From assembly GCA_021809185.1 (NCBI GenBank), contig JAKBAI010000004.1, forward strand, positions 1 to 64,000: DNA of 64,000 nt. Direction: 5' to 3'. This DNA is from Planctomycetota bacterium. GTDB lineage: Bacteria > Planctomycetota > Planctomycetia > Gemmatales > Gemmataceae. Numbering within the stretch: the stretch's first letter is position 1; each line of letters begins with the position of its first letter. This document shows positions 6,029 through 13,722 of this stretch, one piece after another. The notes beneath the pieces were generated by a model. It was not told where the DNA came from and did no database searches. It saw nothing but the letters and a program-made list of their open reading frames with translations. A program made the position numbers and the translations under genes.

Positions 6029-7900
6029 ATGGAACATCAATTTCGGATCAATTTACAGGGGATAATCGATTTATTATCCAATAATTTATATGGGGAATCG
6101 CGAGTATTTATTCGTGAATTGCTGCAAAACGGTGTCGATGCGATTCAGGCTCGCTCTCAACTGATCGACAAGGGGGCTGATGGGTCTGCTCTTGGAGACT
6201 CTCTTAGAGACAATGATATAAATTTTGGTCATTTAAAGATCGAATTAATCCCAGGAAATAGCGGATCATTGCCAGTTTTAAGTTTTGTGGATGATGGGAT
6301 CGGACTAACGGAAGAGGAGGTTCATCGATTCCTGGCAACGATCGGTCAGAGTTCGAAGACCAGCAATTTATGGAAAGCTCGAGAAAATTTTCTCGGGCAG
6401 TTTGGGATCGGATTGTTATCCTGTTTTATGGTGAGTGAAGAGATCGTGGTGATAACCAGATCGGCGCGATCGGAGGATGCGCCAACACTCGAATGGAAGG
6501 GGCGATCGGATGGCACCTATAAAATTCGCGTTTTGAATTATTCGATCGAACCAGGTACTCAAGTTTATCTGAATTGTAAACCGGGCTGCGAGTCGATGTT
6601 TGAGTTAGATGAACTTATAACCAATTTAGTTTATTATGGAGGATTGCTTCCCTATAAAATTGAAGTGATTTCTGGAAAAAAGCGGCAGATTATCAATCCA
6701 GAAGGAATTCCTTGGCATCAAGAATTCCCTTCAGAAACAAAGAAAATCGAGTATTTGCTTGAATATGGCAAAAAAACATTTGATGTCGATTTTATCGATG
6801 CCATTCCTCTGCGGTCCAAAATAGGAAAAGTCGATGGAGTTGCGTTTGTTCTTCCTTATGCCCCAACGGTTGCTCAAAATCCTACCCATCGGGTCTATCT
6901 GAAGCAGATGTTGCTTTCGGAAAAAGCGGAGAACCTGGTACCGAACTGGGCTTTTTTTGTTAAGTGCATCATCAATGTCAATGATTTGCGTCCAACGGCA
7001 TCGCGTGAATCGTTTTACGAAGATGAAAAACTGCAAAAAACTCGAGAAGCGATTGGGGATAATCTACGAAATTACCTGTTTCATTTACATCGAACGCAAC
7101 CGGATCGGTTACGCCGAGTGATTCAATTGCATAATTTGTCGATCAAAGCAATGGCTTTGGAAAACGACGATTGTTTCCATATGTTCATGGATTTATTGAC
7201 TTTCGAAACATCCAAGGGAAATATGACATTTGGCGAATATCGCCGTTCTACAGATCAAATACGTTATGTGACTCAGCTCGATGCTTTTCGTCAGATAGCG
7301 CCCGTCGCTGCTGCCCAACAGATTCAAATTCTCAATGCAGGTTATGTCTACGAAGAGGCTCTTTTGGAGAAATATCAGGCTCTGCATCCTGATGATGAAT
7401 TACAAAAGATTCAGCCTTCAGATCTCTCGCACGATCTAGAAGATTTGAGTATCGAGGAGAGAGAAAAAAGCCACCATCTAGCTCAGCTCGCTGATGTGGT
7501 ATTGCAGCCTTATCATTGCATGACACAAATTCGTAAATTTCAACCCGACGATTTGCCTGTTTTGTTGACGATCGATGGGGAAGCCGAGTTCCGCAGAGAT
7601 TTGGATCGATCCAAAGAGGTTGCCAACGAATTATGGTCCTCGATCATGGATCATCTAAGCCCCGCTGCTTCGATAAGTACTTATGCGCAGCTCTGCTTCA
7701 ATTATCGTAACCCCCTCGTGAAAAGGCTGATTTCGATTCGAGATAAAGAATTGCTTCGGCGGTGTATTGAAATGTTATATGTGCAATCTTTATTGCTGGG
7801 TCACCATCCCTTAGATGCTAAGGAAATGAAGTTGTTGAATCGCGGTTTATTAGGTCTCATTGAATGGGGGTTGAATCAAATTCCCATGAAAGATTCGTAA
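6029..7900 (+). CDS. Divergent Hsp90-family ATPase/chaperone
   Basis: The 623-aa protein has the full Hsp90 layout. Its GHKL ATP-binding domain carries the catalytic Glu and Mg-binding Asn in FIRELLQNGVDAI (E30, N34), the DDGIG loop at 88-92 and GQFGIG at 123-128. The middle domain has the catalytic loop TASRES (R326), preceded by RVYLKQMLLSEKAENLVPNW, which corresponds to the Hsp90 segment before the SRE motif. The C-terminal part ends in helices that could dimerise. The N-terminal wording (LSNNLY...RELLQN-VDAI) is that of the atypical HSP90 family known from actinomycetes and others, not of classical HtpG (ELISNASDA). It has no signal peptide, so it is cytoplasmic. Four paralogous TPR-like genes follow on the same strand and probably encode partners. 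A weak GAGAAG precedes the start. Confidence 0.92.
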   Translation: MEHQFRINLQGIIDLLSNNLYGESRVFIRELLQNGVDAIQARSQLIDKGADGSALGDSLRDNDINFGHLKIELIPGNSGSLPVLSFVDDGIGLTEEEVHRFLATIGQSSKTSNLWKARENFLGQFGIGLLSCFMVSEEIVVITRSARSEDAPTLEWKGRSDGTYKIRVLNYSIEPGTQVYLNCKPGCESMFELDELITNLVYYGGLLPYKIEVISGKKRQIINPEGIPWHQEFPSETKKIEYLLEYGKKTFDVDFIDAIPLRSKIGKVDGVAFVLPYAPTVAQNPTHRVYLKQMLLSEKAENLVPNWAFFVKCIINVNDLRPTASRESFYEDEKLQKTREAIGDNLRNYLFHLHRTQPDRLRRVIQLHNLSIKAMALENDDCFHMFMDLLTFETSKGNMTFGEYRRSTDQIRYVTQLDAFRQIAPVAAAQQIQILNAGYVYEEALLEKYQALHPDDELQKIQPSDLSHDLEDLSIEEREKSHHLAQLADVVLQPYHCMTQIRKFQPDDLPVLLTIDGEAEFRRDLDRSKEVANELWSSIMDHLSPAASISTYAQLCFNYRNPLVKRLISIRDKELLRRCIEMLYVQSLLLGHHPLDAKEMKLLNRGLLGLIEWGLNQIPMKDS

Positions 7901-8178: not shown

Positions 8179-9351
8179 ATGAGTTCATTTTTAGATCAGA
8201 TCAATCAGATAATCGATCAAGTCAATAAACTTCCCAACGGTAATACCAAAATCGGATTACTAGAAGAGGGGATTCGATTAGCCGATCTTCACCAAAGGGA
8301 AGATATTGGCTACGAGCTTCGAGAGGAATTGATTGAAGTGAGTACCTTTTGGGGTGCTCCAGAAAAAGCTTTGCTAGCTTTTAGTTGGATTTTGGCCGAA
8401 TATGATCGTAACCCCGACCAATATGATTTGCACCATCTTTTATGGCAGTATAAATGGGTCATCGCTTCTTTGGATGATTTCCCCCATATTAGTTTGCAAC
8501 AGATCGATCAAGCGATGGAAGATATGTCTCGCCGCTATAAAGAAAGTGGATTGGGGCTGCGACCGCTGTATAAAATTGCCTGTGAACACGCTATGACCAG
8601 GAAAGATCGAGAGAAGGTCAAATATTTCCAAAAATTATGGCGATCCGAAAAGATTGATCACGGCAATGATTGCTCCGCCTGTGAGCGTGATTCACAAGTT
8701 TCGTATTATTTATTTGTGAACGATCTCGAACGCGCTTTAAAGGCCGCAGAGCCGATTCTTTCTGGCAAAATGAAATGTGGGGAAGTTCCGCATGTGACTT
8801 TACCAGAATTATTACTCCCACTTTTACGGAAAAAAGAAATCAATTTAGCGGTCGATTATTATCTTTGGGCTGCCAAAATTTTGAATCGTGACCCAGATTT
8901 TATTGCGGAATATGGAAAATTGATGACTTTCCTTGCCTTAACCAGTAATTTCAAAGAAGGGATCAAAATCTTTGAAAAGATGCTCCCCGCAGTCCTAGAA
9001 GCAAAAGCCCTATCGAGACGCTTTACGTTTCAATTAGGAGCTAGTTTATTATTTCATTATTTACAGGATTCTGGAAAAGATTCCATTTCGCTTCGTTTAC
9101 CACAAGAACTAAAATTATCGGGCTCGAAAGGGCTGGATAAAAATGGCACGGAAACCGATAAAGCAAAAAAAATACCTTCTCAGAACGTTCAAATTCAAAG
9201 CTTAATCGATTGGATCGATAACGATCTTCTCCATCTCGCCAAACTATTTGATGAACGGAATGGGACCAATGCCTTTCGAGCGGAAATCGATGAAGCAAAA
9301 AATCTCAAAGATCTTTGTTGCGTTATCCCCCTTAAAAAAGAAGAGGATTGA
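8179..9351 (+). CDS. TPR-like helical protein, paralogue A (Cys type)
   Basis: This 390-aa cytoplasmic protein is the first of four tandem paralogues behind the Hsp90-like gene. It is almost all helical, with antiparallel helix pairs such as REKVKYFQKLW, LERALKAAEPIL, INLAVDYYLWAAKIL and FKEGIKIFEKML, which look TPR-like without the strict TPR consensus. Landmarks shared by all four are the FSW motif (68-70), LLWxYKW (87-93), VPHxTL (203-208), a strongly conserved LALT segment near 252 and a C-terminal FDxRNG (358-362). This copy has C165-x2-C168 and C200, followed by H205. A charged linker at 312-337 separates the last helix pair from the C-terminus. I know no function; a co-chaperone or client-scaffold role is inferred from context only. 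The upstream 14-bp repeats replace a normal ribosome-binding site. Confidence 0.85.
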   Translation: MSSFLDQINQIIDQVNKLPNGNTKIGLLEEGIRLADLHQREDIGYELREELIEVSTFWGAPEKALLAFSWILAEYDRNPDQYDLHHLLWQYKWVIASLDDFPHISLQQIDQAMEDMSRRYKESGLGLRPLYKIACEHAMTRKDREKVKYFQKLWRSEKIDHGNDCSACERDSQVSYYLFVNDLERALKAAEPILSGKMKCGEVPHVTLPELLLPLLRKKEINLAVDYYLWAAKILNRDPDFIAEYGKLMTFLALTSNFKEGIKIFEKMLPAVLEAKALSRRFTFQLGASLLFHYLQDSGKDSISLRLPQELKLSGSKGLDKNGTETDKAKKIPSQNVQIQSLIDWIDNDLLHLAKLFDERNGTNAFRAEIDEAKNLKDLCCVIPLKKEED

Positions 9352-9576
9352 TCAGTCGAGTTGCTTCTGGATTCTAAAATTGCTTTATGGACGATGGTAG
9401 CGTCAGTACTTATTAGAAATCAGAAACGATGATCGAAATAAAAATCAGAAAATATAGAAAATGATTTTTAGTATTCTTGCAGAAAGCATGTAGGAGTTCG
9501 TGATAAAATAGTAGATTGATTGAGACCAAATAATGAGATTATAGTTTGGCCGTAATTCAAAAGATAAAAGTGAAGT

Positions 9577-10737
9577 ATGATGAAATCTATTTTAGATCAA
9601 ATAAATTCGATTATTGAGCAGGTCAATAAACTTCCGAATGGCAATACCAAGATAGAGCTGATGGAAGAAGCGATTCGGTTGGCAGATGTTCACCAACGTC
9701 CGGACATCGGCTTCGATCTTCGCGATCAGTTAATGACAGTAGCTACTTTTTGTGGGGCACCGGAAAAGACGCTGGTAGCTTTTAGTTGGTGTTTGGCTCA
9801 ATGCGATCAAAATCCAGAAGAATTTGATCAACTCCAGTTGCTGTGGAAATATAAATGGGTGGTAAGCTCGCTCAAATATTTTCCCCATATCCGTCTTGAT
9901 CAAATCAATCAAGCAATGGAGGATATGACAAAGCGTTATCAGGGATGTGGTCTAGGGCTTCGTCCAGTGTATAAATTGGCCTGTGAGCATGCCATGGCGC
10001 GTAAAGATTATCCTCAGGTTAAACATTTTCAGCGGTTGTGGCGCTCAAGTCCGATTGGTAGCGGTAACGATTGTGCGGCGTGCGAGCGTGATTCACAAGT
10101 TGGGTATTATTTATTCGATGGCGATATCGATCGCGCTTTCAAGGCTGCCGAACCGATCGTAACTGGTCAAATGAAGTGCGGGGAGGTTCCGCATGTAACT
10201 TTACCTCAGTTATTGGTTCCTTTATTACGCAGAAAAGATTATGCGAAGGCAACGCATTATTATTTCTGGGCGACGAGATTGTTAAAATATAATCCCGATT
10301 TTATTTCAGAATATGGTAAAATTCTCACTTTTTTGGCGCTAACAGGGAACCCTAATGAGGGCTTGCCGATTTTAGAAGCGATGCTACCGGCGGTCATGGA
10401 AACGAAAGCCTTGTCCAGAAGATTTTATTTCCAACTTGGGACAAGTTTATTATTGCATTATTTGCAGGAATCTGGATCTGAACAGATTTCGATCCGTATC
10501 CCCAAAGAATTGAAAGACCTTTTAGAAAAAGATTTTGCAGGAGCTAGCGGGGCTAAAGAAATAGATAAGAAGTCGATTTCTTTGCAATCGTTTATCCAAT
10601 GGGTCGATGCCGATCTGCAACGTATCGCCACTCTGTTCGATAAACGCAACGGAACCGATGCTTTTACCCGAAATATTGAAGATTCAAAAAACGATCGCGA
10701 GCTTTTCTGTTTAATCCCTCTTAAAGCGGTCGATTAG
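9577..10737 (+). CDS. TPR-like helical protein, paralogue B (Cys type)
   Basis: The 386-aa product is the closest relative of paralogue A, about two-thirds identical by eye over the first 180 residues. It keeps all landmarks: LPNGNTKIELMEEAIRLAD near the N-terminus, FSWCLAQCD, LLWKYKW, RPVYKLACEHAM, the C166-x2-C169 and C201 set followed by H206, VPHVTLPQLLVPLLRRK and FDKRNGTDAF near the end. There is no signal peptide or membrane segment. A 225-bp gap separates it from A, long for an operon, so it may have its own promoter. The close A/B similarity suggests a recent duplication relative to C and D. Confidence 0.85.
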   Translation: MMKSILDQINSIIEQVNKLPNGNTKIELMEEAIRLADVHQRPDIGFDLRDQLMTVATFCGAPEKTLVAFSWCLAQCDQNPEEFDQLQLLWKYKWVVSSLKYFPHIRLDQINQAMEDMTKRYQGCGLGLRPVYKLACEHAMARKDYPQVKHFQRLWRSSPIGSGNDCAACERDSQVGYYLFDGDIDRAFKAAEPIVTGQMKCGEVPHVTLPQLLVPLLRRKDYAKATHYYFWATRLLKYNPDFISEYGKILTFLALTGNPNEGLPILEAMLPAVMETKALSRRFYFQLGTSLLLHYLQESGSEQISIRIPKELKDLLEKDFAGASGAKEIDKKSISLQSFIQWVDADLQRIATLFDKRNGTDAFTRNIEDSKNDRELFCLIPLKAVD

Positions 10738-11081
10738 ATCATATCTATCGAACTCATGGAAATAGAAAGTTACCAAAAGAGCGAATGGGAAACTGAAATC
10801 GGTCTTAATATCTTATCGTTTAATCCAACTTAGTAACAAGGTCTTGAAGAATGTTAGGGTCTTGAAGAATCCTAATGGCAATTTGTAATCGCATTTCAAT
10901 TATTTGAGAACGCCGTTTAGCAATTGTTGATGAATTTTGCTTGATCATCAAGTATAATAATAGAAGCTATAACGAAATAGAGAAGGATTGGTTCTTTAAA
11001 CAAATAGAAGTTCAGCGATTGACCAAGAAAAAGAAAATGAAGTTCACTGCTGATCAACTGTTTTTCCAAGAAAGGGAAAAT
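10738..11081. other. Gap between paralogues B and C
   Basis: This 344-bp AT-rich gap contains a short imperfect duplication (GTCTTGAAGAAT at about 10841 and 10859). An in-frame upstream extension of gene C begins at 10941, but it has no counterpart in the other paralogues and is treated as non-coding. Confidence 0.4.
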
Positions 11082-12233
11082 ATGAAAGAAAGCGTTCAAT
11101 CGATTCGAGAGCTATTGAAACAAGCAAAGACAATGCCTCATGGTCCAACAAAAATATCGATGCTCAAGAAGGCGATCGATCTTAGCGATAGCTTTCAGCA
11201 AACTCGACTAGGGTTTAGATCACGTAGATATTATCTTGATGCATCCCGTTTTGGTGGGTCTCCATCGTTGCGTTTTGCAGTCTTTAGTTGGTGTTTAGGG
11301 CAATGTGATCGCGATCCAGATCAGTTTGATGAGAACGATCTATTGTGGGAATATAAATGGATGATTTCCGAAATGATTAATAATGCTGAAATACCACAAA
11401 GACAGCTTTTTGATGCCATAGCGGATATGAAGAAAAGGTATGAAAGGAATGGATTATCGCTCAAACCGGTATATAAGCTACAACGGATCGAAGCAACCGA
11501 TCGCGGCGATTTTGCTGCGGCAAAAGAGTACAATCGTTTATGGCAATCGGCTAGTAAAGATGGAATGAACGATCCCGATTACGGAGATCGAAACGATTTT
11601 GTTTCGTATTTGGTGCAGCAGAAGCTTTATGAAAAAGCGTTGAAAACGGCATTGCCGATCCTTGACAAATCGATTCCCATGGATGATAATCAGGTGGTGC
11701 CTCATTCGACGTTGGGACATATCGTTGTCCCTACCTTTCTACTGAAAAAATATGATGACGCCCGCCGATATCATCAGTGGGGAATACGACTGATTCGGAA
11801 TCAACTCGATTATCTAGAAGAATCGGGAAAGCATTTGATGTATACCGCCCTCAGCAAAAATTACGCAAAGGGATTACAGATCATCGAATGGAATGCTATC
11901 TTATATTCCGAGTCGATTAACGTAGGAAGCCGATTTGTTTTTTCTCTTGGCGCCGTGTTGTTGTTCCGATTGATGGTTCGGGATAATATCGAGAAAGTTT
12001 CGCTGCGTGTATCGAAAGAGAACAGCTGGTTTCGTCCAGATGGGGAGTATTCTGTCCCCGATTTGTTAGCGGTTTTTGAGGAAGATTGTAAAAGTACTGC
12101 TGATGCGTTTGATCAACGCAACGGTTCAAAAAGATATATGGAACAGTACCAGGACTTAGAGGAGTTAGCAAGTTTGGCAATCGACCAGCCAATTTCGTAT
12201 GAACGAACGGAGGGAGATCCGAGTGAAGATTAA
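11082..12233 (+). CDS. TPR-like helical protein, paralogue C (Cys-less type)
   Basis: Starting at 11082, the product is 383 aa and aligns end to end with the other three copies; AAGGG lies just upstream. An alternative start at 10941 would add 47 residues that have no counterpart in the paralogues. It keeps FSWCLGQCD, LLWEYKW, RFVFSLGAVLLFRL and FDQRNGSKRY. The cysteine motif of A and B is replaced: DCxACERD becomes DPDYGDRND, and the third Cys before VPH is also gone, while the His of VPHST remains. It is shared with paralogue D, so C and D form a second subtype. No signal peptide is present. Its role is unknown and is presumably linked to the Hsp90-like protein. Confidence 0.82.
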   Translation: MKESVQSIRELLKQAKTMPHGPTKISMLKKAIDLSDSFQQTRLGFRSRRYYLDASRFGGSPSLRFAVFSWCLGQCDRDPDQFDENDLLWEYKWMISEMINNAEIPQRQLFDAIADMKKRYERNGLSLKPVYKLQRIEATDRGDFAAAKEYNRLWQSASKDGMNDPDYGDRNDFVSYLVQQKLYEKALKTALPILDKSIPMDDNQVVPHSTLGHIVVPTFLLKKYDDARRYHQWGIRLIRNQLDYLEESGKHLMYTALSKNYAKGLQIIEWNAILYSESINVGSRFVFSLGAVLLFRLMVRDNIEKVSLRVSKENSWFRPDGEYSVPDLLAVFEEDCKSTADAFDQRNGSKRYMEQYQDLEELASLAIDQPISYERTEGDPSED

Positions 12234-12585
12234 GCAGAACGTGTACAAGGAGTCAAATATTCAAACCCAAATAAAATTTCATTTGAACAATCGGATTTAG
12301 GGATTCTAAAAGCTGGTTGAAATTGATGATCAAAAGTTGGAAGGGGGATAGAGTGACAAAGGAATCGGAAAATTTAGAGGCTCCCCTAACTAAAAATAGG
12401 GAGTGGAAATTTTAGTTGACGATGCCATTCAAAATAGCGAAAAGTGTTAGTTGGTAGAAAGAGATTTTTTTATTTTCGGATTGAATATAGTAGAGTTGAA
12501 AGTAGTAGAGTTGAATATAGTAGAAAAAATGAATGATTGTAAACGGAATATGAAAAATCGATCGATATTTTGATTTTTTGACAGG
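12234..12585. other. Gap between paralogues C and D, with repeat
   Basis: This 352-bp gap holds a 15-bp tandem repeat at 12481-12525 (listed separately). I see no terminator hairpin with a U-tract, so read-through from C into D is possible. Confidence 0.4.
12481..12525. repeat. 15-bp tandem repeat, three copies
   Basis: The unit TTGAATATAGTAGAG occurs three times; the middle copy has AAG in place of TAT and the last copy ends in A. It lies 60 bp upstream of paralogue D. Confidence 0.85.
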
Positions 12586-13722
12586 ATGATGAAAGTAGCT
12601 TTCATGAAAGATATACCCAGAGATATACTCGAATTGGTTAGCCAAGTTCAGAAATTACCACACGGGCCTGCCGAAATTGAACTGTTGGATGAGGCTATTC
12701 GTTTGGCGGATAATTACGGGAGAGCCGATTTGGGGTTTTCGCTTCGCAAGCTGATGCTTTCAGCAGCGGCCTTTGGAGGTGCACCGGATAAGCTTTTGGT
12801 GGCTTTTAGTTGGTGTTTATCGCAGTGTGATGAGGATCCTGAGCAATTTCCAGAAGTGGATATTTTATGGGAGTATAAATGGGTGATTGGCAATCTTCGC
12901 AACTTCCCGCAAATAAGCAGAGATAAAGTCGAAGAGTTGTATGTAGATATGGATCATCGTCTCAAGAAAAATGGTTTCAGCGATCGTCCTGTATTAAAGT
13001 TGAGATGGCGATCAGCGATGCACTCTGGCGAAATGGAGAAAGCGGCGATGATCTTCAATCGTTGGAAAATAGCGCCGATCGATCGTATAAATGACCCAGC
13101 AGTGGGGGACAGGAATGATGTAGTCGAATACGAATGTATTCGCGGGAATTATGAAAAGGCATTAAGGATAGCCGCCCCGATTTTATCTGGAGAACTGGTG
13201 AACGAAGGAGCGGTGCCACATACAACGTTAGGGATGGTTGTTTTACCTCTTTTTCACCTAAATCAAGTGAAAAGAGCGGTGAATTATCATTATTGGGGGA
13301 TTCAATTAATGAATAAAAACCCGCAATATTTATACCAATTTGGCCAGCATCTGGAATTCCTGGCTCTAACGGGGAATCTGGAGCGGGGATTGCGTATTTT
13401 AGAAGCGGTCTTTCTTCATTTTTTGCAGTCAAAAGCCTATTTTCGGAAGTTTCAATTTGCTCTAGGGGCGTTGCTATTATTTCGCATTTTACGAGAAGAT
13501 AATCGCCAGGAAATTGCGTTAAAGCTACCTAAATCATTTCCCCTCCATGAAAAGGAAGGCCGTTATTCAACGGAATCGATCATTACCTGGCTAGAAGCGG
13601 AATTAGAAGAGATAGCGAATTTATTTGCCAATCACTTTCAGAATCGGCATGCTCACCAGACAATCGCTCGGCAGGCCGATTTACAAAAACTCCGCAGGGA
13701 TTATCCGATTCATCGAAAATAA
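12586..13722 (+). CDS. TPR-like helical protein, paralogue D (Cys-less type)
   Basis: This 378-aa protein is the fourth member of the array. Landmarks retained are LPHGPAEIELLDEAIRLAD, FSWCLSQCD, LLWEYKW-like ILWEYKW, VPHTTL, the HYWG segment and RKFQFALGALLLFRIL. As in C, the A/B cysteines are replaced (INDPAVGDRND, and Glu in place of the third Cys), while the His of VPHTT stays. The C-terminal FDxRNG of the others has drifted to a form with HFQNRHA. The start is uncertain: two adjacent ATGs at 12586 and 12589 follow AGG too closely, and a Met at residue 7 is possible. It ends 44 bp before the convergent cytochrome/WD40 gene. Confidence 0.82.
   Translation: MMKVAFMKDIPRDILELVSQVQKLPHGPAEIELLDEAIRLADNYGRADLGFSLRKLMLSAAAFGGAPDKLLVAFSWCLSQCDEDPEQFPEVDILWEYKWVIGNLRNFPQISRDKVEELYVDMDHRLKKNGFSDRPVLKLRWRSAMHSGEMEKAAMIFNRWKIAPIDRINDPAVGDRNDVVEYECIRGNYEKALRIAAPILSGELVNEGAVPHTTLGMVVLPLFHLNQVKRAVNYHYWGIQLMNKNPQYLYQFGQHLEFLALTGNLERGLRILEAVFLHFLQSKAYFRKFQFALGALLLFRILREDNRQEIALKLPKSFPLHEKEGRYSTESIITWLEAELEEIANLFANHFQNRHAHQTIARQADLQKLRRDYPIHRK

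Follow-up and report, generated by a model that had tools for sequence, protein, structure and literature searches.

The Hsp90-TPR array in the window

The window, by which we mean the whole stretch of 64,000 nucleotides of planctomycete DNA under analysis, carries on its forward strand a gene for an HSP90 family protein (NF010683/PRK14083; positions 6029-7900, 623 aa), followed on the same strand by four tandem paralogues, A to D. The Hsp90 protein reaches 724.6 bits with the NF010683 model, well over the curated NCBIfam cut-off of 455, and its gene, which is the conserved upstream partner of the family described below, is separated from A by 278 nt. Paralogue A (8179-9351, 390 aa), a TPR-like protein characterized by its open reading frame, by alignment and by an AlphaFold2 model, and paralogue B (9577-10737, 386 aa) are 63% identical in alignment and share an intact site of three cysteines. 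Paralogues C (11082-12233) and D (12586-13722, 378 aa) lack these cysteines and align with A at 32-36% identity. The 383 aa of C are counted from the ATG at about 11082, chosen because it aligns with the start of A; the longest open reading frame opens at 10941. A second family hallmark, the near-invariant motif FDxRNGN, is lost at the C-terminus of D, where positions 13624-13644 read FANHFQN, while the FDxRNG motif is present in C.

The same genome has a separate HtpG-like gene (G000:C323). It also has a fifth, distant and Cys-less paralogue outside the window (L213:4064-5176, G000:C45), which adjoins a HEAT-repeat gene and has no Hsp90 gene nearby. A promoter scan of the array was uninformative, with 13 sites compared to 20.7 in shuffled sequences, thus fewer than in the shuffles.

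A widespread and unnamed protein family

Judged by their sequences, A to D are members of an unnamed and uncharacterized TPR-like family, of which the three-Cys site is the hallmark. Profile searches recovered relatives in Planctomycetota, Bacillota (Listeria, Paenibacillus and Clostridiaceae), Bacteroidota (Pedobacter and Bacteroides) and Actinomycetota, and in one metagenome-assembled genome (MAG) of Deinococcota (Deinococcales). Neither Pfam nor NCBIfam holds a family that matches A to D at E<=1. Among solved structures in the PDB, the profile matches are designed PPR/TPR proteins and NprR. Like TPR and other alpha-solenoid proteins, the family consists of all-helical hairpin repeats; it differs from them in that no Pfam TPR model matches A to D, and the invariant three-Cys site and FDxRNGN mark it as a separate family.

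Many actinomycete proteins of the family (L051, L055-L069 and L238-L249) are extended at the C-terminus by several hundred residues, and in some of them the Pfam model TPR_12 weakly matches this extension. A presumed Hsp90 fusion in Glutamicibacter (L064) was rejected, as no Hsp90 domain was found in the long frame. The possibility of an anti-phage defence system was likewise rejected, because PADLOC-DB gave no match: A, D and two further members had no hit at E<=0.1, and the window Hsp90 has only weak ATPase-domain matches to TmtA. Among phage records, pieces of the family turned up in just three, of which two are unannotated Listeria phages and the third is a gut phage.

The three-cysteine site

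The initial annotation had described a C-x2-C-x31-C pattern in A and B, and this reading of the letters is correct, with equal spacing in both proteins (C165, C168 and C200 in A; C166, C169 and C201 in B). In A, the CxxC element C165-S-A-C168 is encoded at positions 8671-8682 (C165 at 8671-8673 and C168 at 8680-8682), C200 at 8776-8778 and H205, which follows C200 after four residues, at 8791-8793, all on the forward strand. Also as described, C and D have Pro and Gly in place of the first two cysteines and a non-Cys residue in place of the third (Asn in C, Glu in D), and the surrounding RD/RN and VPH framework is kept in the alignment. The site reads NDPDYG (11568-11585) and DNQVVPH (11685-11705) in C, and NDPAVG (13090-13107) and NEGAVPH (13201-13221) in D. 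A further cysteine common to A and B (C135/C136) is not generally conserved in the family.

AlphaFold2 predicts A as an all-helical TPR solenoid (pLDDT 93.7, pTM 0.91), with hairpins including residues 128-156, 166-194 and 203-235, that is, with the helix-hairpin repeat expected of a TPR protein. Foldseek matches of the model include LGN, an APC/C subunit and domain III of MalT, besides others. In this model the CxxC element opens helix 166-179, and C200 lies three residues ahead of helix 203-217, its counterpart in the hairpin that follows, so that the CxxC and the third cysteine stand about one repeat of 34-35 residues apart. Since TPR geometry makes these helix ends neighbours, one shared three-Cys site across two adjacent repeats is plausible. 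The same fold is predicted for D, also at pLDDT 93.7. The D loop 201-210, which holds the third Cys position, drops to pLDDT 77, as against 97 in the matching block of A; this would fit a Cys site that normally pins the loop, as no more than a hint, since the two models were built on different alignments.

The family alignment argues for linkage of the three positions, as had been proposed from the array alone. Among 132 full-length members, counted after removal of duplicates and with the split open reading frames of 'CC-' or '--C' pattern left out (L040, with masked bases, and L081), all three cysteines are present in 112 and none in 17, whereas one is present in 2 and two in 1. A model of independent columns with the observed frequencies would expect 0.37 members with none and about 41 with exactly one lost, which puts the observed pattern far outside chance. 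Homologues with one or two cysteines, which would have spoken against a linked site, are therefore limited to three of the 132: one member with S/C/C (L199:7760-8947) and one with the third cysteine alone (L215:450-1604), both of which group with intact copies, and one single-Cys member on a long branch that is doubtfully aligned (L236). Taken together, the joint retention across phyla, the repeated joint loss and the placement at equivalent ends of adjacent predicted repeats support the view that the three cysteines behave as a single linked site, which may be of metal (probably zinc) or of redox type.

In a non-redundant set of 64 intact members (60% identity cut), the cysteines are invariant (64 of 64), as follows from the way the set was chosen, and R360 is the sole other fully invariant position. 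None of the nearby Asp, Glu and His residues is invariant in these members. The best candidates for a fourth ligand, D160, D164, E169, E202 and H205, are conserved in 55-77%, with D160 and D164 at 77%. The histidine, included in the originally proposed motif, cannot be counted among the constant residues of the site, since it is found in 35 of the 64 intact members (55%), the others having Glu, Ala or further residues, and is kept in the Cys-less paralogues C and D. On the same grounds, H205 was ruled out as a conserved fourth ligand. A search for a covarying fourth ligand could draw on five independent pairs with support, a number too small to reach significance. Two residues that flank the cysteines follow the state of the site, A167 falling from 88% in intact to 6% in altered copies and P204 from 92% to 29%; K92 falls from 89% to 24%, yet is kept in C and D.

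Repeated loss of the site

When the three Cys columns are removed before the tree is built, 8 changes between the intact and the altered state are needed, and at least 5 of these changes are forced by well-supported branches; the tree is of a quick kind with several long branches, and the exact number is accordingly soft. Parsimony by itself gives no direction of change. The intact state occurs in five phyla (Deinococcota by the one MAG) and the altered state in Planctomycetota alone, which makes loss the economical reading. The sequences thus indicate that the cysteines were lost several times independently, and all three at once.

The four paralogues of the window fall into a single clade (SH-aLRT 98, starred), which places the change in C and D within this local expansion. 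A comparable event is seen in a tandem pair of close sisters in another genome (L216, genome G205), one of which has all three cysteines and the other K/A/K at these positions. Of the 13 planctomycete genomes with altered copies, 12 have an intact copy as well. The description of a site present in half of the array applies to the window but does not extend to other arrays, which combine one intact with four altered copies, three intact copies, or other numbers. In one genome (G423), the Hsp90 gene is followed by five tandem members (L199:2268-10047): three Cys-less, one with S/C/C and one intact. Among the altered copies, one Gemmataceae clade shares a distinctive motif, SDDxETE ... HFFG, that recurs in several genomes, which suggests that some altered copies are maintained.

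A proposed partnership with a second Hsp90

The main context of the array, missing from its earlier reading, is a two-gene partnership with a specialized Hsp90. In 84 of 113 family loci, the TPR gene is immediately preceded on the same strand by an NF010683-type Hsp90 gene, which in 82 of these 84 overlaps the TPR gene or lies within 100 nt of it. At some loci the Hsp90 gene is missing because the contig ends. Across 102 genomes of the window's order, with Hsp90 presence taken as an NF010683 gene over the cut-off, 19 have both genes, none has the Hsp90 only, 2 have the TPR gene only and 81 have neither (Fisher p 1e-18, before correction for relatedness). The two TPR-only genomes, which lack an NF010683 gene, belong to one genus. 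The association persists in three genomes in which the two genes are on different contigs or far apart (G1290, G430 and G1282). The Hsp90 and the TPR family are thus joined both by genomic linkage and by co-occurrence.

In the Hsp90 partner family, the motifs of the ATPase domain are strongly conserved. A conserved acidic tail resembling MEEVD was not found: the tails of 45 of the 82 aligned partners, which were compared for this purpose, are variable and share no acidic motif. Two cysteines of the partner are conserved (C133 in 94% and C498 in 80%) and are possibly linked to the Cys site of the TPR protein.

In RefSeq-derived annotation of Listeria and Streptomyces, the two genes appear as 'HSP90 family protein' and 'hypothetical protein'. 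In Listeria monocytogenes (L288, NZ_LR134399.1), the ferritin gene fri lies beside the pair in divergent orientation, and the pair is followed by an SMI1/KNR4 gene. This record of 394 kb is labelled a plasmid, carries queG and trmL, and may be a piece of the chromosome.

Nature of the site and proposed function

We propose that A to D are tandem duplicates that would work together with the Hsp90 paralogue whose gene precedes them, a contact suggested by linkage and co-occurrence. In A and B, and likewise in nearly all relatives, the three cysteines, located at matching ends of two neighbouring TPR hairpins, would form one linked site. Zinc would be its likeliest occupant; the fourth ligand would vary or be supplied from elsewhere, and the zinc would pin both hairpins together with the loop that precedes residue 203. 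After duplication, C and D may have been freed of the constraint on the site, keeping the fold and losing the cysteines, which probably changes what they bind and may set them apart functionally from A and B, perhaps, as first suggested, in the conditions to which the two subtypes respond. The chances are about even that A to D are, in this way, dedicated co-chaperones or client adaptors of the second Hsp90, with a zinc-type site in A and B and with C and D as site-less extras. The cysteines themselves are best read as a site that duplicates can dispense with, binding a metal (probably zinc) or acting in redox chemistry. Several observations count against this explanation: no fourth metal ligand is conserved, the Hsp90 has no conserved acidic tail, two TPR-bearing genomes have no NF010683 gene, and a CxxC at the start of a helix would suit a redox function, too.

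The last point leads to the main rival of a zinc-type site, a redox switch, in which the CxxC would form a disulfide and the third cysteine would act as resolving or sensing thiol, an arrangement that would tune the Hsp90-TPR pair during thiol stress and leave C and D as redox-blind copies. The position of the CxxC at a helix N-terminus in the model of A, the number of just three conserved ligands, the conserved C133 and C498 of the Hsp90 and the location of the divergent Listeria pair beside fri would all agree with such a switch. However, the three cysteines are strict even in anaerobes such as Bacteroides and Clostridiaceae, which is more typical of metal binding, and with a redox pair one would expect to see the third cysteine lost more often, so that we regard the switch as unlikely. 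It is very unlikely that three protein thiolates hold an iron-sulphur cluster or another metal: three invariant cysteines with no fixed fourth ligand would allow it, but we know of no iron-sulphur motif which the spacing resembles, and no gene related to iron-sulphur clusters recurs among the neighbours, on an unsystematic view of these.

A different question is whether C and D are simply decaying duplicates, their joint loss of cysteines reflecting relaxed constraint instead of a second functional subtype. D has lost FDxRNGN as well, and altered copies almost always occur alongside intact ones and within a single phylum. Nevertheless, C and D are full length with core motifs, the fold of D is predicted with confidence, and the alternative motif of the Gemmataceae clade is kept over several genomes; decay is therefore a rather improbable account. 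Whatever their fate, the copies produced by repeated joint loss in tandem arrays are natural site-minus variants from which the role of the site could be learned.

Relation to known chaperone systems

TPR co-chaperones of Hsp90 are a textbook feature of eukaryotes, in which Hop, FKBP52 and Cpr7 grip the MEEVD tail of Hsp90. The family described here resembles them as a TPR protein partnered with Hsp90, in this case via gene linkage only, and differs in that the bacterial Hsp90 has no conserved acidic tail and its TPR proteins carry a Cys site. Bacteria are described in one study as having no ortholog of Hop, the best known TPR co-chaperone (PMC7688965). That several bacterial phyla possess a second, specialized Hsp90 with its own obligate TPR co-chaperone, bearing a metal or redox site in the solenoid, seems to us possible, at somewhat less than even chances. 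If true, it would be a bacterial counterpart of a partnership thought to be eukaryotic, which planctomycetes have expanded into arrays of site-bearing and site-less co-chaperones. Through a conserved Hsp90-TPR unit, the question whether bacterial Hsp90 has co-chaperones could also be put to the test in Bacteroides, Streptomyces or Paenibacillus; single-copy pairs occur in Bacteroides and Paenibacillus.

Cysteine metal sites are known from the stress and quality-control proteins Hsp33 and LapB, the latter of which has TPRs, too. In both, four cysteines form the site in a separate domain, whereas the three cysteines of A and B lie inside the solenoid. The Hsp33-type motif CxC-x(27-32)-CxxC was considered and dismissed, as A and B have CxxC-x31-C in a TPR fold.

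No description of an HtpG-TPR operon or a PRK14083 pair was found in the open-licence literature, an absence that is weak evidence. The existence of two HtpG proteins in Bacteroides fragilis and Streptomyces coelicolor has been noted (Chen et al., 2006; PMC1525184), and the sections of that study consulted make no mention of a TPR partner of the second HtpG. The same sections give HTPG2, the second HtpG of B. fragilis, as 588 aa (Chen et al., 2006), a length near that of the B. fragilis Hsp90 in the present data (L062, a 590-codon frame). From this match in length we infer that the Hsp90 partner may correspond to one of the HTPG groups of that study.
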